Assembly (NCBI RefSeq): GCF_000337815.1
Contig: NZ_AOLN01000017.1
Location: forward strand, 62,001-126,000
Length of the DNA: 64,000 nucleotides
Direction: 5' to 3'
Source of the DNA: Haloferax mucosum ATCC BAA-1512
GTDB taxonomy: Archaea; Halobacteriota; Halobacteria; Halobacteriales; Haloferacaceae
The notes under the pieces were generated by a model. It was given only the letters and a program-made list of their open reading frames with translations, was not told the origin of the DNA and searched no databases. Shown here in pieces: positions 4,487 to 64,000 of this stretch. Within the stretch, counting starts at the first letter, position 1; each line of letters begins with the position of its first letter. A program made the position numbers and the translations under genes.

Positions 4487-5077
4487 GTGGAACTCGCGCT
4501 TCTCTACAGTGGCGGGAAAGACTCTTCGCTCGCCGCTTTGCTTCTCGATACGTTCTACGACGTAACGCTCGTGACGGCGCATTTCGGCGTCACCGACGAT
4601 TGGGCGCACGCCAAAGACGCCGCAGGCGAACTCGGCTACGCGTTCGAAACGCTGGAACTCGACCGCGACATCGCCGAGAAAGCGACGGCCCGCATGGTCG
4701 AAGACGGCTACCCTCGCGGCGGTATCCAACAGGTCCACGAACACGCGCTCGAAGCCGTCTGCGGGCTCGATTTCGACGCGATTGCCGACGGCACCCGGCG
4801 CGACGACCGCGTGCCGTCCATCTCGCGGGCGCAAGCGCAGAGTCTCGAAGACCGCCACGGTGTCGATTACCTCTCGCCGCTTTCCGGGTTCGGCCGCGGC
4901 GCGGTTGACCGCCTCGTCGAGACGCACCTCGACGTCGAGACAGGTCCCTCCGAGGAGATACCGAAAGCCGACTACGAGGGCGAACTCAGAGCACTCATCG
5001 CGGCGGAGCACGGCCGGGAGGCGGTTGATGAGGTGTTCCCCGACCACGTCCAAAGTTACGTCCACGGTCGGCGGTAG
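4487..5077 (+). CDS. PP-loop ATPase (alpha-hydrolase / asparagine-synthase-like fold)
   Basis: A 196-aa ATP-pyrophosphatase-type protein with SGGKDS at residues 8-13, the PP-loop that binds ATP in tRNA-thiolating enzymes, GMP synthetase and asparagine synthetase. No second catalytic domain is present, so the reaction (perhaps tRNA or other nucleotide modification) cannot be assigned. Start is GTG at 4487, 4 bp after the PDCD5 stop; the glycine-rich loop lies right at the N-terminus, so a later start would destroy it. Confidence 0.85.
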   Translation: MELALLYSGGKDSSLAALLLDTFYDVTLVTAHFGVTDDWAHAKDAAGELGYAFETLELDRDIAEKATARMVEDGYPRGGIQQVHEHALEAVCGLDFDAIADGTRRDDRVPSISRAQAQSLEDRHGVDYLSPLSGFGRGAVDRLVETHLDVETGPSEEIPKADYEGELRALIAAEHGREAVDEVFPDHVQSYVHGRR

Positions 5078-5158
5078 GTGTGGGGAGACTAACATCCAGT
5101 CGCCCCGCCGTTCGTCAGTACCGCGCCGTTTTTGACCGCGCCACTCGCCGACTCAAAC

Positions 5159-6064
5159 ATGGACCCGGGTATCTTCTATTCCGTGCTTGCCGCGTTCGTC
5201 TGGGGCGTCTACATCTTCGTGTTGAAGCGCTACTTTCCGGGCTACCCCGGCGCGGTTCTCACCGTCGTCGTGAACGCGTTCGCCGTCGCGTGGTATCTGC
5301 CCGTCTCAGTCGTGACGTTCGAGCCGTCGGCGGTGCCGTCGCCTGCGGAAATCGGCGCTGACGGGACCGTTATCGTCGCCGGGACGGCGGTCCTCGTCGG
5401 CGTCGCCTTCATTCTGTTCGTGGACGCGCTCGACGCGGGTGATGTCTCCTACGTCGCGCCGATCAACAAACTGGTCCCGGTGTTCGTGTTGCCAATCGAG
5501 ATTCTCTTCTTGGACCAGTTTCTCACGGGACTCCAGGTAGCCGGCGTCGCCGTCGCAACCGTCGCGGTCTACGTGGCGAACTACGAGGGCGGCGCACTGC
5601 TCGACCCGCTTCGCAGGGCAGTTCGCTCCCGTCCGGCGCAACTCGCGTTGGCGAGTGCGGCCTGTTACGCCGCCAGCGACGTTGGAAAGCGCGTCGCCTT
5701 ACAGGAACTTTCCATTCCGACGAGCGTGTTCGTCCCGATTCTGTTCGCCGGCGCGGGCATCGCGGTTCTCCCGGTCGCACTCCGGAAGTGGACGAGTGTC
5801 CGGGGGGATTTGCCGAAGTTCGCCGCCGCAGGTGCGCTCGTCGCGCTCGGTGAGCACATCACCTCGACGGCGTTCGGCCTGGTTCCCGCGAGCATCGCCT
5901 CCCCAATCGTCAACACGCAGGCGGTCATCGCCGTGGTTCTCGGCGGGGTCGTCCTCCGCGAAGCGCAGTTCGGAACGCGCCTCGTCGCCGCTCTGCTCGC
6001 CGTCACCGGCGTCTCGCTTATCGCCATCGGCGACGTGGACGTCATCCTCGCGGCCGTCCGATAG
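5159..6064 (+). CDS. EamA/DMT-family transporter
   Basis: A 301-aa membrane protein with about ten hydrophobic segments in two EamA repeats; the second repeat ends in the typical region with PASIASPIVNTQAVIAVVLG. The drug/metabolite transporter superfamily exports or imports small metabolites; substrate unknown. I chose ATG 5159, starting MDPGIFYSVLAAFVWG at the first membrane segment, rather than the TTG at 5132. It is the first of three DMT proteins in the window. Confidence 0.88.
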   Translation: MDPGIFYSVLAAFVWGVYIFVLKRYFPGYPGAVLTVVVNAFAVAWYLPVSVVTFEPSAVPSPAEIGADGTVIVAGTAVLVGVAFILFVDALDAGDVSYVAPINKLVPVFVLPIEILFLDQFLTGLQVAGVAVATVAVYVANYEGGALLDPLRRAVRSRPAQLALASAACYAASDVGKRVALQELSIPTSVFVPILFAGAGIAVLPVALRKWTSVRGDLPKFAAAGALVALGEHITSTAFGLVPASIASPIVNTQAVIAVVLGGVVLREAQFGTRLVAALLAVTGVSLIAIGDVDVILAAVR

Positions 6065-6124
6065 CGTCGCGGGAACTTGCTCGGAACAACAGGTTTCAAG
6101 CGCCGCCTTCGCCAACCACTGTCC

Positions 6125-7420
6125 ATGTACGACCGACTCAAGGGATTTCGTGACTTCTATCCCGAAGAGATGTCGGCCCGGCGCGAGGTAATCGACACCG
6201 TCGAAACCGCCGCCGCCCGGTACGGCTTCCGCGAAATCGGGACGCCGTACCTCGAACGGACACAGATGTACGTCGATAAGTCCGGCGAGGAAATCGTCGA
6301 TGAACTGTACGCTTTCGAGGACAAAGGCGGCCGCGAAATCGCTCTCACGCCCGAACTGACGCCGACCGTCGCCCGGATGGTCGTCGCCAAACAGCAGGCG
6401 CTCTCGAAACCTATCAAGTGGGTCTCGACGCGCCCCTTCTGGCGCTACGAGCAGGTCCAACAGGGTCGATTCCGCGAATTCTACCAGACCAACGCCGACA
6501 TCTTCGGCTCTTCGGAACCCGAGGCGGACGCCGAAATTCTGGCGTTCGCGGCCGACGCGCTCACCGACCTCGGTCTCACGGCCGACGACTTCGAGTTCCG
6601 CGTCTCGCACCGCGACATCCTCGGCGGTCTCCTCCGGTCGTTCGACGCCGACGTACACGTCGCGGACGCGATTCGCGCCGTCGATAAGTCCGAGAAAGTC
6701 GAACGCGAGGAGTACCTCGGCCTGCTCTCCGACGCCGGTCTCTCCTACGCCCAGGCGGACGAGTTCGCCGACCTCATCGAGCGCGGCGACCTCGACGAAA
6801 TCGCCGACTTCGGCGGCGAGAGCGTCGCATCGGCGGTCAAAAACCTCAGAAGCGTCCTCGCGGCGGCCGACGACTTCGGGGCGGGCGACTACTGCGAAAT
6901 CTCGCTCACGACCGCCCGCGGGCTTGATTACTACACTGGCGTCGTCTTCGAATGTTTCGACTCCACGGGCGACGTGTCCCGCGCGACCTTCGGCGGCGGC
7001 CGCTACGACGACCTCATCGAATCGTTCGGCGGCCAACCGACCCCTGCGGTCGGCGTCGGCATCGGCAACGCGACGCTCCAACTGCTCTGTCAGCGCGCCG
7101 GCGTCTGGCCCGACGAGGAACTGACGACCGACTACTACGTCCTCACCGTCGGCGACACCCGCGATGTCGCCTCCCGTATCGCTCGGGACCTCCGCGCGGC
7201 GGGCAATATCGTCGAAGCCGACGTCTCCGACCGGAGTTTCGGCGCACAGATGTCGTATGCCGACTCGGTGAACGCGAGCACCGTCGTCATCGTCGGCGAG
7301 CGCGACCTCGAAAACGGCGAAGTGACCATCAAAGACATGGAAACCGGCGACCAGACGACCGCCGCCGTCGATGAGTTCCCCGGCGACCGCGGCGAACCGA
7401 CGTACGAGGACTTCGAATAG
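6125..7420 (+). CDS. hisS: Histidyl-tRNA synthetase
   Basis: Class II aminoacyl-tRNA synthetase charging tRNA-His, 431 aa. The N-terminus MYDRLKGFRDFYPEEM matches the HisRS start. Motif 2 region RPFWRYEQVQQGRFREF is at about residues 100-116, the histidine-binding loop GLDYYTGVVFE near 267-277, and motif 3 around GVGIGNATL. A C-terminal anticodon-binding domain of about 100 residues follows. ATG 6125 is preferred over the upstream TTG at 6077 because conservation begins there. Confidence 0.96.
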   Translation: MYDRLKGFRDFYPEEMSARREVIDTVETAAARYGFREIGTPYLERTQMYVDKSGEEIVDELYAFEDKGGREIALTPELTPTVARMVVAKQQALSKPIKWVSTRPFWRYEQVQQGRFREFYQTNADIFGSSEPEADAEILAFAADALTDLGLTADDFEFRVSHRDILGGLLRSFDADVHVADAIRAVDKSEKVEREEYLGLLSDAGLSYAQADEFADLIERGDLDEIADFGGESVASAVKNLRSVLAAADDFGAGDYCEISLTTARGLDYYTGVVFECFDSTGDVSRATFGGGRYDDLIESFGGQPTPAVGVGIGNATLQLLCQRAGVWPDEELTTDYYVLTVGDTRDVASRIARDLRAAGNIVEADVSDRSFGAQMSYADSVNASTVVIVGERDLENGEVTIKDMETGDQTTAAVDEFPGDRGEPTYEDFE

Positions 7421-58700: not shown

Positions 58701-58773
58701 GGGCCCGTAGCTCAGTGGACAGAGTGCTTGGTTCCGGACCAAGATGTCGCGGGTTCAAATCCCGTCGGGTCCG
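58701..58773 (+). tRNA. tRNA-Arg (CCG anticodon)
   Basis: Cloverleaf with acceptor stem GGGCCCG/CGGGTCC (one G-T pair), D-loop AGCTCAGTGGACAGAGT, anticodon loop TTCCGGA reading CCG inside the CTTGG/CCAAG stem, and T-arm GCGGGTTCAAATCCCGT; discriminator G at 58773. No intron. The downstream DNA differs in composition, so this is the likely attachment site of the element to the right. Confidence 0.96.
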
Positions 58774-58841
58774 TCAAAATTTTACTCGGTTCCTATATGT
58801 ATAAAATACAGCTCTCAGCTCATCTATCGGCTGGTCTCGTC

Positions 58842-58859
58842 CCGAGTATATATACTCGG
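58842..58859. promoter_or_regulatory. 18-bp perfect palindrome CCGAGTATATATACTCGG
   Basis: Self-complementary over 18 bp, with a TATATA core that looks like a TBP site. It lies about 105 bp before the zinc-finger start at 58947 and near the element's edge. A dyad over a TATA element suggests an autoregulated promoter, where a repressor would block TBP. Confidence 0.55.
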
Positions 58860-58908
58860 AGCGAAGGGCCGAAAGAGAGTAAACAACCGTAGGGAACGCG
58901 CCACGCCG

Positions 58909-58935
58909 CCGTCTCTCGGTGACGAGAGTAAAACG
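58909..58935 (+). other. Stem-loop with GNRA tetraloop, leader of the element operon
   Basis: CTCTCG-GTGA-CGAGAG (58913-58928) is a perfect 6-bp stem with a GTGA (GNRA-type) loop; flanking CCGT (58909-58912) and ACGG (58933-58936) extend it after an internal TAAA bulge. It sits immediately before the first start codons (58938-58950), so it could control translation. Could also be chance. Confidence 0.4.
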
Positions 58936-58946
58936 GGGTGGTGGGC

Positions 58947-59180
58947 ATGATGCTACTCGACTCTCGGAGCGAGTCGGGTAGGTGTCTGTACTGCGGGTCT
59001 CACGTCTCGCTGGACTTCCGGCGAGTCTACGGCGATGACGACGACCGCGCACACCGCTGTTTCGAGTGTGATACGCTGGTTCGCTTACAGCGCGGGTCAG
59101 CTGGCGGTCTCGACGTTCCGATACCGGACCCGTGGATCGCGCCCGGTCGTCACGGTGGCGACCCTGAACGGTGGTCATAA
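58947..59180 (+). CDS. Small zinc-finger protein of the mobile element (DUF7563-like)
   Basis: About 77 aa with one CxxC...CxxC site (CLYCGSHVSLDFRRVY then CFECDTLVR), related in layout to the 51-aa chromosomal protein at 11518. Candidate starts are GTG 58938, GTG 58941, ATG 58947 and ATG 58950; ATG 58947 is shown. The stop TAA overlaps the next start (TAATG), so it heads a coupled operon. Likely DNA- or protein-binding. Confidence 0.8.
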   Translation: MMLLDSRSESGRCLYCGSHVSLDFRRVYGDDDDRAHRCFECDTLVRLQRGSAGGLDVPIPDPWIAPGRHGGDPERWS

Positions 59181-59644
59181 TGGGTGTCGCAGCCTCGAAG
59201 CGGGCGGGCGCGACTGTCGAGTCCGCACTGCTTCAACGGCATCCCGAGCTGCGGCACGTCCCTGACGACGTAGCCGAGCATCACGACGCGGTGGCCGTCT
59301 CGTTACTCTCGCCGAGTCGTGACCTACCCTTCGTCGGTCTCTGTCTCCTCGAGACGGGGACCGTCGTAGAGATCAAGAGCGCGATGGTGGTGTACGGTGA
59401 GCGACAGCGCCGCGGGCGCTTCCTGATTCGGGAAGCCCAACACAACCACCTCCTCGAGAAAGGTGGTGTCTACCTCTTCGCCGTCTGTGCGCCCACGCCC
59501 GACCGCGACATCATCGCGGCGAAGGTCATCCCGGCGAGTCTCGTTGACGAGTTCAACTTCTCGTGGGTCTCACCGAAAACGCGGTCGAACTACGCGCAAT
59601 TCGCGTGGTCGCGGGTATTCTCGCCTGAGGAGGTGGAAGGATGA
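59180..59644 (+). CDS. PD-(D/E)XK nuclease-like protein
   Basis: A 154-aa protein with a pattern like Holliday-junction-resolvase or restriction-type nucleases: Glu in an early helix (GATVESALLQ), HHDAVAV, VVEIKSA as the E-x-K core, and REAQHNHLLEKGGVYLFAV with the conserved Gln. Start ATG overlaps the previous stop by 1 bp. It could resolve junctions during element replication or act as a nuclease in defence. Enzyme activity is inference from motifs. Confidence 0.72.
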   Translation: MGVAASKRAGATVESALLQRHPELRHVPDDVAEHHDAVAVSLLSPSRDLPFVGLCLLETGTVVEIKSAMVVYGERQRRGRFLIREAQHNHLLEKGGVYLFAVCAPTPDRDIIAAKVIPASLVDEFNFSWVSPKTRSNYAQFAWSRVFSPEEVEG

Positions 59645-60213
59645 CCCGCCTCCGCGGGACGTACTTCGCGCGACTATCCAACGGAGTGGCGACACCACCG
59701 CCGTACGCGACGGTCTTCGCTGTTGTCCGTGACGCGCCTGCGTGGGTCGAAGGCATCGCCGACCGGAACCTCCCTCATCTCGCCCCACCAGAGGAGCTGA
59801 CAGAGACTCGGAATCGAGTCGAATCAGCTGCCGAGGACGACGGTGTAGACGACCCCGAGCTGGTTGCGTGGAACTCGGTCAACTTCGAAGCACAGTACCG
59901 AGACCACTTGTCTCGCGGGGGCGCACGCGAAGTCCTCAGAACGCTGGTGGAGACAGTCGAACGTCGCCCCGTGTGGCTTGTCTCGTGGCGCTCTCGCGCC
60001 GACTTAGACCATCGCTCGGTCCTTCTCGAAGAACTCCGCCAGCGGGCTGAACTCGGCCCGTGTGAACCGGGCCAACACCGTTGGACACGCGGAGTGGTAC
60101 CGACAACGGTCGTCTGTGGTCGGTGTGGCTACGGTTCAACGAGCCTCACGACTGGCCAGCTCGCGCAGGACATCGACATACCCGCGCGGATTTCGGGAGG
60201 TGTCACGCAGTGA
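59641..60213 (+). CDS. Element protein with C-terminal zinc knuckle
   Basis: A 190-aa protein, MTRLRGTYFARLSNG at the start. Near the C-terminus CEPGQHRWTRGVVPTTVVCGRCG contains C/H...CxxC, a possible zinc site; the N-terminal half is alpha/beta with no motif. It overlaps the nuclease gene by 4 bp (ATGA) and the next gene by 4 bp (GTGA). I do not recognise it. Confidence 0.75.
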   Translation: MTRLRGTYFARLSNGVATPPPYATVFAVVRDAPAWVEGIADRNLPHLAPPEELTETRNRVESAAEDDGVDDPELVAWNSVNFEAQYRDHLSRGGAREVLRTLVETVERRPVWLVSWRSRADLDHRSVLLEELRQRAELGPCEPGQHRWTRGVVPTTVVCGRCGYGSTSLTTGQLAQDIDIPARISGGVTQ

Positions 60214-61841
60214 GTTTTGTCGCCAGCGCACCGCACGAGACTCGTGGCGATCTCCTGTACGCAGAGTACGGGTCGTCACCGTACTGGGCGGTTCGCCAGC
60301 TGTACAACCACATCGACGGTGGTCTCTCGAAACTCGAGGTAGAGATTCCCCGTCACGAGGAGGATGGAACCGAGACGTGGGTCGTCTCGCTTGGCTTCCA
60401 CCAGTCAGGTCTCTCACCGCGAGAGTCGGACACGGTGAACACGCTCCTCGAGTACGACATCAACGCCTACGGCGAGGGTGAGCGGAAACTACCGGTCTGT
60501 GTACAGCCGCGACTCGCGTGGTCTGACGAGAATCGCCCAGACAGTGTTCCGGCAGCTCTCGGCCCCGCGACGAACGTGAAGCTGCAGAACGTGGTGAACC
60601 TCGAGCTGGACGAGATTCCACACGTGTTCAAGTGGGTGATGCGCCGCGTCTGCGAGCAAGTCGGCTTCGACTGGTCGCGGAAGTACTTCACCGAGGAGCC
60701 ACACAAGTTCTCGACTCTCACCCAACACGAGCGATACCTGCGAATCGACCGCGAACAGGCGCAGAAGTTGGTCAGACGCGATGGCGTGTTCATGAAGCTC
60801 TTCATGCTCTGTGCCGACATCGAAGGGTCCCACATCGTCTACGATTCGAACAACGAGGACGTGGTAGGCTTCAACCACCAGCTCCGGCTGGACCGCTCGG
60901 CTATCGAAGAACTGTTCTCGAACAGCCAGCACCGCCCGCGCGGGCTGCAGCTGAAGCACTATCACCCGCAGTACGTGCGCACGGAAGCGAACGGTGACCC
61001 GCTGTATCACCCGAAGCTCGGTGCGCTGTACAAGAAGAACCTGAACCGAGATCAGGCGGTCCCGTGGAGCGAGCGCCACGATCTCGTGGCTGACCTCGAG
61101 GAGAAGTTGATGAACGTCCTGTCGTGGGCGGATATCCCGACACAGCCGGGAATGTGGTTCGTCCCTGACGACCACTTCGACGCGAGTGCGTCCGACCGGA
61201 CGGTTGCACTCTGGGATGACCCGACGCCGCAGATTGAAGCGTCCCAGGAATCGGTCATCATGCGCACGTTCTCGAGGCTCACCGATTCCGACCGCGACGT
61301 ACTCGAACACCTCGCACTCACCGACGGTGGACGCTCGGTTAGTGAACTCAAGGATGAAACGGGCTGGTCTTCCACGACGATCCATCGCGTCCTGCGCCGT
61401 CTCTCGGGGTTGCTCGAGGAAGACGGCAGAGTCGTGACGTGGGTCTCGTCGAAGATTGCCCAAGAAGTGCGCGAGCTGGTGTCCATCGCTGACGACGTGG
61501 TGGACTCGGTGGCCGCCCGAATCGAGAACGTCCTGAACGTTGACCCGCGCGATCTCGAGCGGTCCGGCCGCGCCCTGCAGAACTGGCTGAACCGCTACGG
61601 TGCGGAAGTCGTCGCCGGGATGAACGACCGGTCTGAGCGCGTGCGGATTCGGGTTCGAACGGTGCTGACCCAATCGAAGAACTCGGCTGCAACGGGTGAG
61701 TATCTGCCCGACGTTCTCGAGGAAGGCCACCGGGCGTGGTGTGACGCGGGTCTCGACTCGCGACGGTTCCTGAACGCGATCATTACCTACGATCAGGCGT
61801 ACGGCCCCATCCAGAACACGGTCGCTCGGAAGCACCTCTAA
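60210..61841 (+). CDS. 543-aa winged-helix protein of the element, candidate replication or regulatory protein
   Basis: GTG start overlaps the preceding stop (GTGA). The N-terminal about 370 residues form a large unrecognised domain (SPYWAVRQLYNHIDGGLSKLEVEIPRHEEDG and later VFKWVMRRVCEQVGFDWSRKYFTEE). Residues about 390-450 form a winged HTH (TDSDRDVLEHLALTDGGRSVSELKDETGWSSTTIHRVLRRLSGLL in parts). I recall related haloarchaeal annotations as DUF7845. A replication initiator or host-range regulator role is a guess. Confidence 0.78.
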   Translation: MSFVASAPHETRGDLLYAEYGSSPYWAVRQLYNHIDGGLSKLEVEIPRHEEDGTETWVVSLGFHQSGLSPRESDTVNTLLEYDINAYGEGERKLPVCVQPRLAWSDENRPDSVPAALGPATNVKLQNVVNLELDEIPHVFKWVMRRVCEQVGFDWSRKYFTEEPHKFSTLTQHERYLRIDREQAQKLVRRDGVFMKLFMLCADIEGSHIVYDSNNEDVVGFNHQLRLDRSAIEELFSNSQHRPRGLQLKHYHPQYVRTEANGDPLYHPKLGALYKKNLNRDQAVPWSERHDLVADLEEKLMNVLSWADIPTQPGMWFVPDDHFDASASDRTVALWDDPTPQIEASQESVIMRTFSRLTDSDRDVLEHLALTDGGRSVSELKDETGWSSTTIHRVLRRLSGLLEEDGRVVTWVSSKIAQEVRELVSIADDVVDSVAARIENVLNVDPRDLERSGRALQNWLNRYGAEVVAGMNDRSERVRIRVRTVLTQSKNSAATGEYLPDVLEEGHRAWCDAGLDSRRFLNAIITYDQAYGPIQNTVARKHL

Positions 61842-62168
61842 CGGGTGGCCTGCCGAGTGGCAACACTCTCACTCACTTCCTTCTTTTATATACTATCCCG
61901 CTTTTTTCGCCCGGCCCTTGGTTTCGTGTGGAGTCTCGATTCATCGTGAGTGACGACTCTCGCGGAGATCGGGCGGGCGCTGTTTCACTCAGCGGGCCAG
62001 CCCCCTTAGTGAGTGTGACTAACGTCACAACTGCGAAAAAATAACCCTCCACCACCGCAGCTCCAGTTGATCCACGTGAAGGATTGCAGATTATTCTCAG
62101 TAGGACAGGAGGTTTGTGCAACCGTGCTTGTACCAACCTTTACTCCACAGTCATATTTACACACGAGG
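61842..62168. other. 327-bp intergenic region of the element
   Basis: No secure gene. It holds a TATA-like ttttatatac at about 61883, a hairpin cgctgtttcactcagcg around 61977-61993, a perfect inverted repeat TGTGAC-TAAC-GTCACA at 62014-62029, and a 32-aa GTG frame at 61946-62044 that looks weakly coding. Possible operator or terminator. Confidence 0.4.
62014..62029. promoter_or_regulatory. Inverted repeat TGTGAC-TAAC-GTCACA
   Basis: Perfect 6-bp arms with a 4-bp spacer, within the 327-bp gap after the winged-helix gene. Arms of this length suit a dimeric HTH regulator, such as the one encoded upstream. Confidence 0.35.
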
Positions 62169-63119
62169 TCATGGGGAGTACTCTCGAAAGGTCTGAAGTT
62201 GTTTGATTTTTCCCAAGTCAATTTCTGATAGGTTGATTACAGTGCGACGAGGCTTACCCTGACCAACAGACATTTCGATGAATAATCTCCGTTTGACAAC
62301 CAAAGATTCGAGGAATGAATTGTAGTCTGTGTATGGTCCAATAGTTCCAATGAGTCCTCTTTGTCGATCTACAACACCGATATTCCATTCAGTATCTTCT
62401 CGAGCAAGTACAATATCTAAATCCAACCTCCCTTCCTCGATTGATTGCATCGTTTCTTGATTTGTTTCTAGTTCAAGACATACATCTCCATTCTTGTCTT
62501 TAACAACACGACGAATTTCGGTATCACTCGAACCCCGGATTAGGTCAATATTTCCTTCGGGGTGTTTGATAACTGCAGCAGTATCTTTTGAATTGAATAG
62601 CGCGACTTTGAATTTAATGCTTTTTCCGTTGTCAAGGTCGGACATCACTTTGGAAAGTATCTCATCGTCTGCATCAATCGAAACAGACAAATTTGCACCG
62701 CAGTTTGCGCAATGCTTGGGAAGCGAATCTTCAGAATTTGGCACATACGAAGTGGCTGTCTCACATTCCAAACATGGCAATAGTATTTCAAACAACCCGT
62801 CTTCTGTTTTCCTAAATCCCGGGAAAGCAGCGACTGAAACCACTCTAACAGAAATATAGGTGGATAGCATGAATATGAGTATAAGCACAGACACCCCCCC
62901 ACGGAGAGGTATGGGAAGAGGAAGGAAGAGAGCTGAGATTACGGCTAACACTACTGAGAGAAACCTAAGTGGTTTCAAATATTTCTCACCAGCGTCCTTC
63001 CATTTTGTCACAATATATCGAGCATGGTCATTGTTGAGTGTCAGCTCTAATTCCCGATCACGGAGCGATAGCTGACTTGGGTATACCGCATTCCGTATCC
63101 ACCATTCGTCTAATTTCAA
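62169..63119 (-). CDS. AT-rich membrane protein with a zinc ribbon
   Basis: A 316-aa protein with two hydrophobic helices (about residues 50-70 and 75-95), a CLEC...CANC zinc ribbon at about 130-155 and a soluble beta-rich C-terminus. Base composition and codon use (AAT, AAA, ATA) differ strongly from the chromosome, so it is probably acquired. Start is uncertain: TTG at 63117-63119, consistent with a leaderless transcript from the TATA-like element at 63145-63155. No family recognised. Confidence 0.6.
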   Translation of the reverse strand: MKLDEWWIRNAVYPSQLSLRDRELELTLNNDHARYIVTKWKDAGEKYLKPLRFLSVVLAVISALFLPLPIPLRGGVSVLILIFMLSTYISVRVVSVAAFPGFRKTEDGLFEILLPCLECETATSYVPNSEDSLPKHCANCGANLSVSIDADDEILSKVMSDLDNGKSIKFKVALFNSKDTAAVIKHPEGNIDLIRGSSDTEIRRVVKDKNGDVCLELETNQETMQSIEEGRLDLDIVLAREDTEWNIGVVDRQRGLIGTIGPYTDYNSFLESLVVKRRLFIEMSVGQGKPRRTVINLSEIDLGKIKQLQTFREYSP

Positions 63120-63144
63120 AGCACTACCAATTTTCTCCAGACAC

Positions 63145-63155
63145 TAATTATAGTA
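63145..63155 (-). promoter_or_regulatory. TATA-like element for the AT-rich membrane protein
   Basis: taattatagta (tactataatta on the minus strand), centred about 31 bp upstream of the TTG at 63119. Confidence 0.4.
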
Positions 63156-63174
63156 TCCCACCTCATTTCGGGAG

Positions 63175-63402
63175 TTAGTCTTTTGACCCACGTTGTTCTC
63201 GCAGTTCCTCGAGCAACCCACCACCCGAAATCGAGACTTCACCGGGGATTGGTGACCACCGGGGGGCCGCCAAATCGCCCCCTAGTGTAAGTAAGTATAC
63301 GCCCGGTGGGGGGTGTGTGGTGGTGGCCACTTCTCGAAGTATCCGCAGTCTGCCGGTTCGACGTTTTGGACCGACCACGGCCCCACATTCGTAACGAGTC
63401 AC
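63175..63402 (-). CDS. Possible 75-aa element protein
   Basis: GTG-started frame with MTRYECGAVVG at the start and GGGLLEELREQRGSKD at the end. Composition is mixed and the middle is Pro/Thr-rich. It overlaps a GC-rich region with short repeats (63240-63264), so it could be an artefact. Shown with low confidence. Confidence 0.3.
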   Translation of the reverse strand: MTRYECGAVVGPKRRTGRLRILREVATTTHPPPGVYLLTLGGDLAAPRWSPIPGEVSISGGGLLEELREQRGSKD

Positions 63403-63450
63403 ATCGAAGATAGAACTAAGTAGGATTGGGTGGCCGATGGGTTGTCAACA

Positions 63451-63678
63451 ATGGTATTCCGAAAGCTCCGAAACCACGACGGCACTCCGCTTGTTGCACT
63501 CGACCGCGACGATCTCGTCCTCGACGGCGTGATCTCTGCGGACGAGGAGGACCGCGAGGATCAGAACATGCACGTCCAGCGATTGGGGAAGGGAGTGTAC
63601 GTCGTTCGGCCGGTTCCGGAGGACGGTCCTATGCAGCCGCTTCACGAGACCGAGCTGTTGCAGGGCCTTGTTAAGTAG
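63451..63678 (+). CDS. Small beta-strand protein of the element, AbrB-like possibility
   Basis: A 75-aa protein beginning MVFRKLRNHDGTPLVALDRDDLVLDGVIS. The pattern K-L...G-T-P-L-V-A-L-x-x-D-D-L resembles swapped-hairpin AbrB-type DNA-binding N-termini (a family I recall as DUF8053 in haloarchaeal elements). The ATG at 63451 was chosen over a GTG at 63430. Could be a transcription regulator of the element. Confidence 0.6.
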   Translation: MVFRKLRNHDGTPLVALDRDDLVLDGVISADEEDREDQNMHVQRLGKGVYVVRPVPEDGPMQPLHETELLQGLVK

Positions 63679-63723
63679 GAACTACGATACCAATCACCAT
63701 TGAAATCGGGAGAGCTTGACCAG

Positions 63724-63864
63724 TTACAAGATCACGCGTGCGATTAGTAGCGACGCGGCCACTTGGTAGAATGGCACCCCAATGATCAGGGCGACCACAA
63801 CTGGTACTATTACTACTGCCCGATTTGTTGATCGGATCGTCTGGTCTTGTATTTCTTTTTTCAT
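63724..63864 (-). CDS. 46-aa hydrophobic protein
   Basis: Small frame MKKEIQDQTIRSTNRAVVIV...ARVIL with a hydrophobic stretch from about residue 16 to the end and a charged N-terminus, so a single- or double-pass micro-membrane protein. ATG at 63862-63864. No family recognised. Confidence 0.45.
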   Translation of the reverse strand: MKKEIQDQTIRSTNRAVVIVPVVVALIIGVPFYQVAASLLIARVIL

Positions 63865-64000
63865 GGCGTTTGCCCTCTCGGGCCTAGTTCATACGCCTTT
63901 AATCCAGACTTTAGATCAACAGTAGATTTTGGTGGACGTACTACATGAGAATTATCTAATTATGTTTAACTGTTCGAATTGAATAATAGTTCAGTAGTCT
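63865..64000. other. Right edge of the window, no gene seen
   Basis: AT-rich 136 bp, beyond the 46-aa ORF; no motif stands out. It may contain the promoter of that ORF. Confidence 0.4.

Follow-up and report, generated by a model that had tools for sequence, protein, structure and literature searches.

CTCGAG is one among about ten type II restriction sites that are avoided in the chromosome of Haloferax mucosum ATCC BAA-1512, and a foreign segment beginning after a tRNA-Arg gene differs from the chromosome in carrying this word at normal frequency, the chromosome being the depleted partner. We consider it probable that long-term restriction purged these sites, with two of the enzymes still resident, that CTCGAG avoidance is the trace of a lost system, and that the segment entered afterwards. 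The window, the stretch of 64,000 nucleotides under analysis, forms part of contig C17 of a draft genome (3.37 Mb in 20 contigs, 97.8% complete), the HisRS of which is 90-91% identical to that of named Haloferax species. Genome-wide O/E values refer to the 2.63 Mb of the genome that was read; the other 0.73 Mb (22%) was covered by family models only.

Scarcity of CTCGAG and its controls

Exact counting placed all twelve CTCGAG copies of the window within positions 59348-63213 (starts at 59348, 59453, 60333, 60447, 60600, 61095, 61271, 61413, 61554, 61716, 62399 and 63208) and none in the chromosomal part (positions 1-58700). The earlier note had listed the same twelve sites and the same zero count, with one start given as 61717 rather than 61716, and its figure of about 20 copies expected by chance equals that of an independent-base model (19.9; Poisson P(0) = 2e-9). 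Better models give more, with 51.1 copies expected in 1-58700 under a maximal-order Markov model (P about 6e-23) and 45.9 (sd 6.6) over the whole window in dinucleotide-preserving shuffles, and neither reproduces the scarcity. Several other words are scarce in this chromosomal part, including GTCGAC (3 observed/84 expected), TCGCGA (0/49), GGCGCC (2/33), GCWGC (2/77), GATC (29/246) and CCWGG (12/72). The foreign segment in the window holds 12 copies of CTCGAG against 9.7 expected under the maximal-order Markov model, which rules out an enrichment of the word and supports the view of the element as foreign DNA that has yet to adapt.

The scarcity extends throughout the genome, with 158 copies of CTCGAG in 3.37 Mb and, in the 2.63 Mb read, 130 copies versus 2118 expected (O/E 0.06). 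The contrast that had been claimed for the dipeptide Leu-Glu, written CTCGAA in the chromosome and CTCGAG in the element, is borne out: among 1648 predicted core genes CTC GAA occurs 2526 times and CTC GAG 42 times, while three element genes contain nine CTCGAG and two CTCGAA. As GAGCTC is avoided too and is unusable as a control word for CTCGAG, comparison was made with congeners, Markov models and codon shuffles. When synonymous codons were shuffled within each gene, leaving its protein and codon counts unchanged, CTCGAG proved to be depleted in all three frames (observed/expected 42/1100, 4/49 and 6/123), and the avoidance claimed for the host chromosome therefore depends neither on codon use nor on the frame. 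GTCGAC, TCGCGA, GGCGCC and GCWGC behave like CTCGAG in this control, the forms of GRGCYC reach ratios of 0.05 (GAGCTC), 0.10 (GAGCCC), 0.14 (GGGCTC) and 0.08 (GGGCCC), and the control palindromes ACCGGT, CGGCCG and TTCGAA show no depletion.

The codon shuffle largely refutes the alternative that CTCGAG is rare through biased use of codons or dinucleotides or through mutation, for instance the deamination of methylated cytosine. CTAG and, less so, CTCGAG are scarce in many haloarchaea and transitions make up many of the changes at lost sites, as might be expected of such a process, but a depletion that persists in every frame of the codon shuffle, an excess of near neighbours (CTCGAC 1.49, ATCGAC 1.60, CCGCGA 1.49), the undepleted control palindromes and the 5000-7000 GTCGAC kept in congeners argue against it, leaving this explanation extremely unlikely.

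Extent of the avoided set and its depth in the genus

The most strongly avoided words, at 2-12% of expectation in core DNA, are TCGCGA (1.6%), CTCGAG (3.9%), GTCGAC (6.6%), GCWGC (7.0%), GGCGCC (11.7%) and GATC (11.8%), with weaker avoidance of CCWGG, ATCGAT, GRGCYC and CTAG. The core comprises 237 of 266 ten-kb bins (2.34 Mb), while fourteen bins represent islands with avoided sites nearer to normal frequency; since the bins were sorted by these same sites, the core figures look somewhat too strong. The unselected O/E values for 2.63 Mb are 0.04 for TCGCGA (85/2081), 0.08 for GTCGAC (286/3405), 0.14 for GCWGC, 0.14 for GGCGCC (160/1169), 0.16 for GATC (1893/12106), 0.25 for GGGCCC, 0.29 for CCWGG, 0.31 for ATCGAT, 0.34 for both CTAG and GAGCCC, and 0.42 for GAGCTC. 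Recognition-type words are thus far below expectation in a model that accounts for their parts, and no 7-mer stands out as depleted in the 2.63 Mb read. With seven strongly avoided palindromes, this genome ranks highest among 61 haloarchaeal samples of similar size, the next having five. A single degenerate site, STCGAS, that would cover both GTCGAC and CTCGAG is ruled out by an excess of CTCGAC/GTCGAG (1.49). The earlier interpretation was sound as to the avoidance and the foreign element; it was too narrow in its single site, and neither a present enzyme nor tRNA integration is supported by the results given below.

The avoided set accumulated in layers, with CTCGAG old and GTCGAC and GCWGC recent. 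CTCGAG is scarce across the genus (158 copies here vs 84-1386 per genome in 14 congeners), and since its avoidance is common to Haloferax it must be old; the O/E values are 0.22 in pooled Haloferax samples, 0.33 in Halorubrum and 1.52 in Natrialbaceae. The pooled Haloferax samples avoid GGCGCC (0.08) and GATC (0.07) as well. Within the genus the avoidance of GTCGAC is specific to this species, in which the word (375 copies vs 5283-7247 in 14 congeners) is 14-fold scarcer than in any congener, and the same is true of GCWGC (O/E 0.07 here vs 0.60 in the pooled samples). TCGCGA occurs 92 times here versus 1734-2460 times in six congeners. At independent positions matched with nine named Haloferax, the DNA of which is mostly 78-88% identical, none of 78 GTCGAC of a relative is kept (P = 2.5e-8), nor any of 29 TCGCGA (P = 0.0017) or 12 CTCGAG (P = 0.08 for CTCGAG alone), whereas control palindromes are kept at 140 of 633 positions. 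The replacements at lost sites are distributed over several positions.

The over-representation of CTCGAG in the Natrialbaceae (samples L045, L075, L078, L079, L087, L092 and L097-L099) is the opposite of the state in Haloferacaceae, with copy numbers of 11293 and 16818 in G040 and G199, which belong to this one family. Both CTCGAG and TCGCGA, the same pair that is scarce in the present genome, are missing from 21-kb samples of Halonotius roseus and H. terrestris (L039 and L070; 0/29 and 0/28).

Candidate resident and probable lost restriction enzymes

XamI cuts GTCGAC and SacI cuts GAGCTC, and genes of both families are encoded in the genome. A gamma-class adenine methylase adjoins a XamI-family nuclease on contig C19 (23234-26590), while a D12 (Dam-type) methylase and a SacI-family nuclease are found on C13 (101501-103554). 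The other methylase genes found are a plasmid one of the beta class on C7, at a distance of 4 kb from a BglII-family nuclease, one for a type IIG/PglX-like protein at C1:68001, and one for a beta-class methylase at C18:556932, which we take to be the conserved CTAG methylase. A family-model search of the whole genome found no C5 methylase. Judging from family names, the pair on C19 can plausibly explain the loss of GTCGAC, and that on C13 plausibly the loss of GRGCYC/GAGCTC. None of the 12 congeners listed has the XamI-family gene, which thus matches the loss of GTCGAC in being specific to this species among its congeners. Of 392 genomes of the order, 10 carry the SacI family; two of these carriers (G098 and G143) contain 94 and 71 GAGCTC, while genomes of their genus without the family contain 2093 and 2813. 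Avoided sites are nearly lacking from the SacI-type cassette and its flanks as well (observed/expected: GATC 4/33, CTCGAG 0/6, CCWGG 0/9), as long residence would give.

Restriction as the cause of the avoidance we infer because discrete restriction-type words are depleted genome-wide and equally in all frames, because lost sites set against retained controls point the same way, and because the XamI-family pair accompanies the species-specific scarcity of GTCGAC and the SacI-family pair has its counterpart in carriers low in GAGCTC. An unmethylated site would be cut whenever methylation lags or is lost, so that lineages losing the site, mostly through synonymous point mutation, would be favoured and the chromosome purged over the long term. 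The pairs on C19 and C13, both still encoded, would account for GTCGAC and for GRGCYC/GAGCTC, and an older XhoI-type system, since lost but of a kind still moving around the order Halobacteriales, would account for CTCGAG. Against this explanation stand several carriers of SacI- or XamI-family genes without site loss, G099 (93% identity) and G045 (83%) among them, and four words, TCGCGA, GCWGC, GGCGCC and ATCGAT, to which no enzyme could be assigned from the genes found. Recent acquisition or changed specificity would give SacI-family carriers without loss, such as G099. The SacI-family nuclease is a weak candidate for the TCGCGA enzyme, as the two carriers that avoid TCGCGA, G098 and G143, also avoid GAGCTC, and avoidance of TCGCGA is not seen in seven further carriers.

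Two further observations concern the families named above. In the island part of C7, the BglII-family nuclease, a pentapeptide/ion-channel protein, a GHKL ATPase with a weak MzaB match and the beta-class methylase lie side by side (L013:4632-11099), a gene group that may represent a possible defence cluster. Genomes G094 and G163 each contain a pair of genes for XamI-family nucleases, separated by about 3 kb, which may flank a single methylase.

The recognition site of XhoI is CTCGAG. No match to the XhoI family (PF04555) was found in the whole genome, nor in the 12 congeners listed, although 16 of the 392 genomes of the order encode such nucleases. The four that were fetched each adjoin a methylase, of which no close relative was found in the genome, and the C19 methylase is ruled out as an XhoI-type enzyme (24-29% identity over part of its length to true XhoI-linked methylases). 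A search of the whole genome with PF04555, PF00145, PF01555 and PF02384 found no gene that could be assigned to a CTCGAG-recognising nuclease or methylase, and of the past or present restriction or modification enzyme proposed in the earlier note, it is the past one that is favoured. That such an enzyme is still active here, in an unrecognised family or in the 0.73 Mb outside the DNA read, is unlikely. In its favour, the draft is 97.8% complete, many nucleases fit no family model, PF02384 finds XhoI-linked methylases weakly and most congeners have more CTCGAG than this genome; against it, the genome-wide searches leave only the plasmid methylase on C7 and the type IIG-like one on C1 as unassigned candidates, and 16 CTCGAG sites entered with the element. 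The avoidance of CTCGAG is thus most likely the trace of a lost XhoI-type system, since the family provides a plausible source in other Halobacteriales in the past and none here at present, and since traces of lost restriction-modification systems are an established part of type II site avoidance (Rusinov et al. 2015, PMC4687349). The XhoI carriers do not themselves prove that XhoI caused the loss of CTCGAG, as they avoid the word no more than many non-carriers and the counts overlap.

Avoidance could alternatively have been shaped by foreign enzymes met during mating or other DNA exchange, with site-free chromosomes surviving in the cytoplasm of the partner. The avoided sites outnumber the candidate enzymes, mating via cell bridges is known in Haloferax, and joint avoidance of many sites is seen in several distant lineages (G098 and G143), all of which would suit this alternative; the loss of GTCGAC and the nuclease gene that accompanies it are both specific to this species, as resident enzymes predict, and the alternative is accordingly rated as highly improbable. 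Equally slight is the prospect that restriction in trans, during mating with partners that have other restriction-modification systems, lies behind the purging of many sites in Haloferax, with site-free chromosomes as universal donors and an avoided set that records the enzymes of the mating community too.

The foreign segment and a probable record of restriction

An intact tRNA-Arg (CCG) gene on the forward strand (58701..58773; ARAGORN) forms the edge of the region of normal CTCGAG frequency, which occupies 58774..64000 and continues beyond the window, with its last CTCGAG at window coordinate 66125. From 58774 to 70396, the contig end in window coordinates, CTCGAG (16 observed/14.1 expected) and AGCT (37/36) are at expectation, GTCGAC is missing (0/7.0; P 0.0009) and CCWGG is scarce (3/13.8). 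Forward-strand genes encode a DUF7563/phrog_7550 small protein (58938..59180; 80 aa), a phrog_2095 protein (59171..59644; 157 aa), a protein with a weak DUF488-N3a/phrog_2450 match (59641..60213; 190 aa), a DUF7845/phrog_3288 protein of the betapleolipovirus/pL6-plasmid replication type (60081..61841; 586 aa as called, with the true start probably near 60210; PMC11431627) and a phrog_14267 small protein (63430..63678; 82 aa). On the reverse strand, a 316-aa protein for which no family was found is encoded in an AT-rich stretch (62169..63119). Eight of the twelve CTCGAG lie in the DUF7845 gene. Its product represents the likeness to betapleolipoviruses and pL6-family plasmids (PMC11431627), with which it shares 23-32% identity; in contrast to these, no spike, ATPase or integrase gene was recognised in the stretch read. 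No other virion genes or ATPase module were recognised among the element proteins scanned, which cover part of the frames, and a search for close viral relatives of the replication protein found none. Past the window, near the end of C17, are a PIN-domain (VapC-like) protein (L005:2472-2873) and a winged-helix protein followed by a weakly PemK/MazF-like protein (L005:3399-4175).

The segment had been described as a tRNA-Arg-linked element, and its foreign nature and position after the tRNA hold. Integration is not supported, with neither a second copy of the tRNA 3' end nor a recognisable integrase between the tRNA and the contig end at 70396, although the contig may end inside the element; insertion at tRNA-Arg is a guess. 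On the preferred reading of a lost CTCGAG system, the segment would have come from a source without CTCGAG avoidance and arrived after cutting at this word had ceased. It is suggestive only that the element could enter then by lacking the site of the resident XamI-type enzyme, as this is a single element, a GTCGAC-avoiding donor would look the same, and other islands contain GTCGAC (58/128 observed/expected).

The genome thus presents a strong new case of a known phenomenon, the extent of which is unusual. As in the genomes surveyed by Rusinov et al. (2015; PMC4687349), palindromic type II sites are depleted, including those of enzymes present in relatives but missing from the genome itself, and depletion was found there to grow with residence time; here about ten sites are affected together, several of them at less than 7% of expectation, and GTCGAC and GCWGC were lost within a single species of the genus. 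Patchy restriction-modification genes, a conserved CTAG-type methylase and scarce CTAG are features shared with the Halobacteria described in the available part of Fullmer et al. (2019; PMC6471742), where the motifs counted are CTAG and GATC only, as opposed to CTCGAG, GTCGAC, TCGCGA, GCWGC and GGCGCC in addition here. The literature searched, with subscription journals mostly outside it, yielded no description of this avoided set in Haloferax. With respect to characterised enzymes, the likeness consists of XamI- and SacI-family nucleases with neighbouring adenine methylases, the specificities of which are presumed from family, and the difference of an XhoI family that occurs in other Halobacteriales and was not found here.

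The avoided words can be read as a layered record of past restriction enzymes, with GATC, GGCGCC and CTCGAG genus-wide and GTCGAC and GCWGC in this species only, and the return of avoided words marks foreign DNA. From the set one can predict the sites that vectors for this strain should lack. With thousands of GTCGAC lost in one species and a candidate enzyme present, the genome offers a natural case for the pace and strength with which restriction shapes a chromosome.
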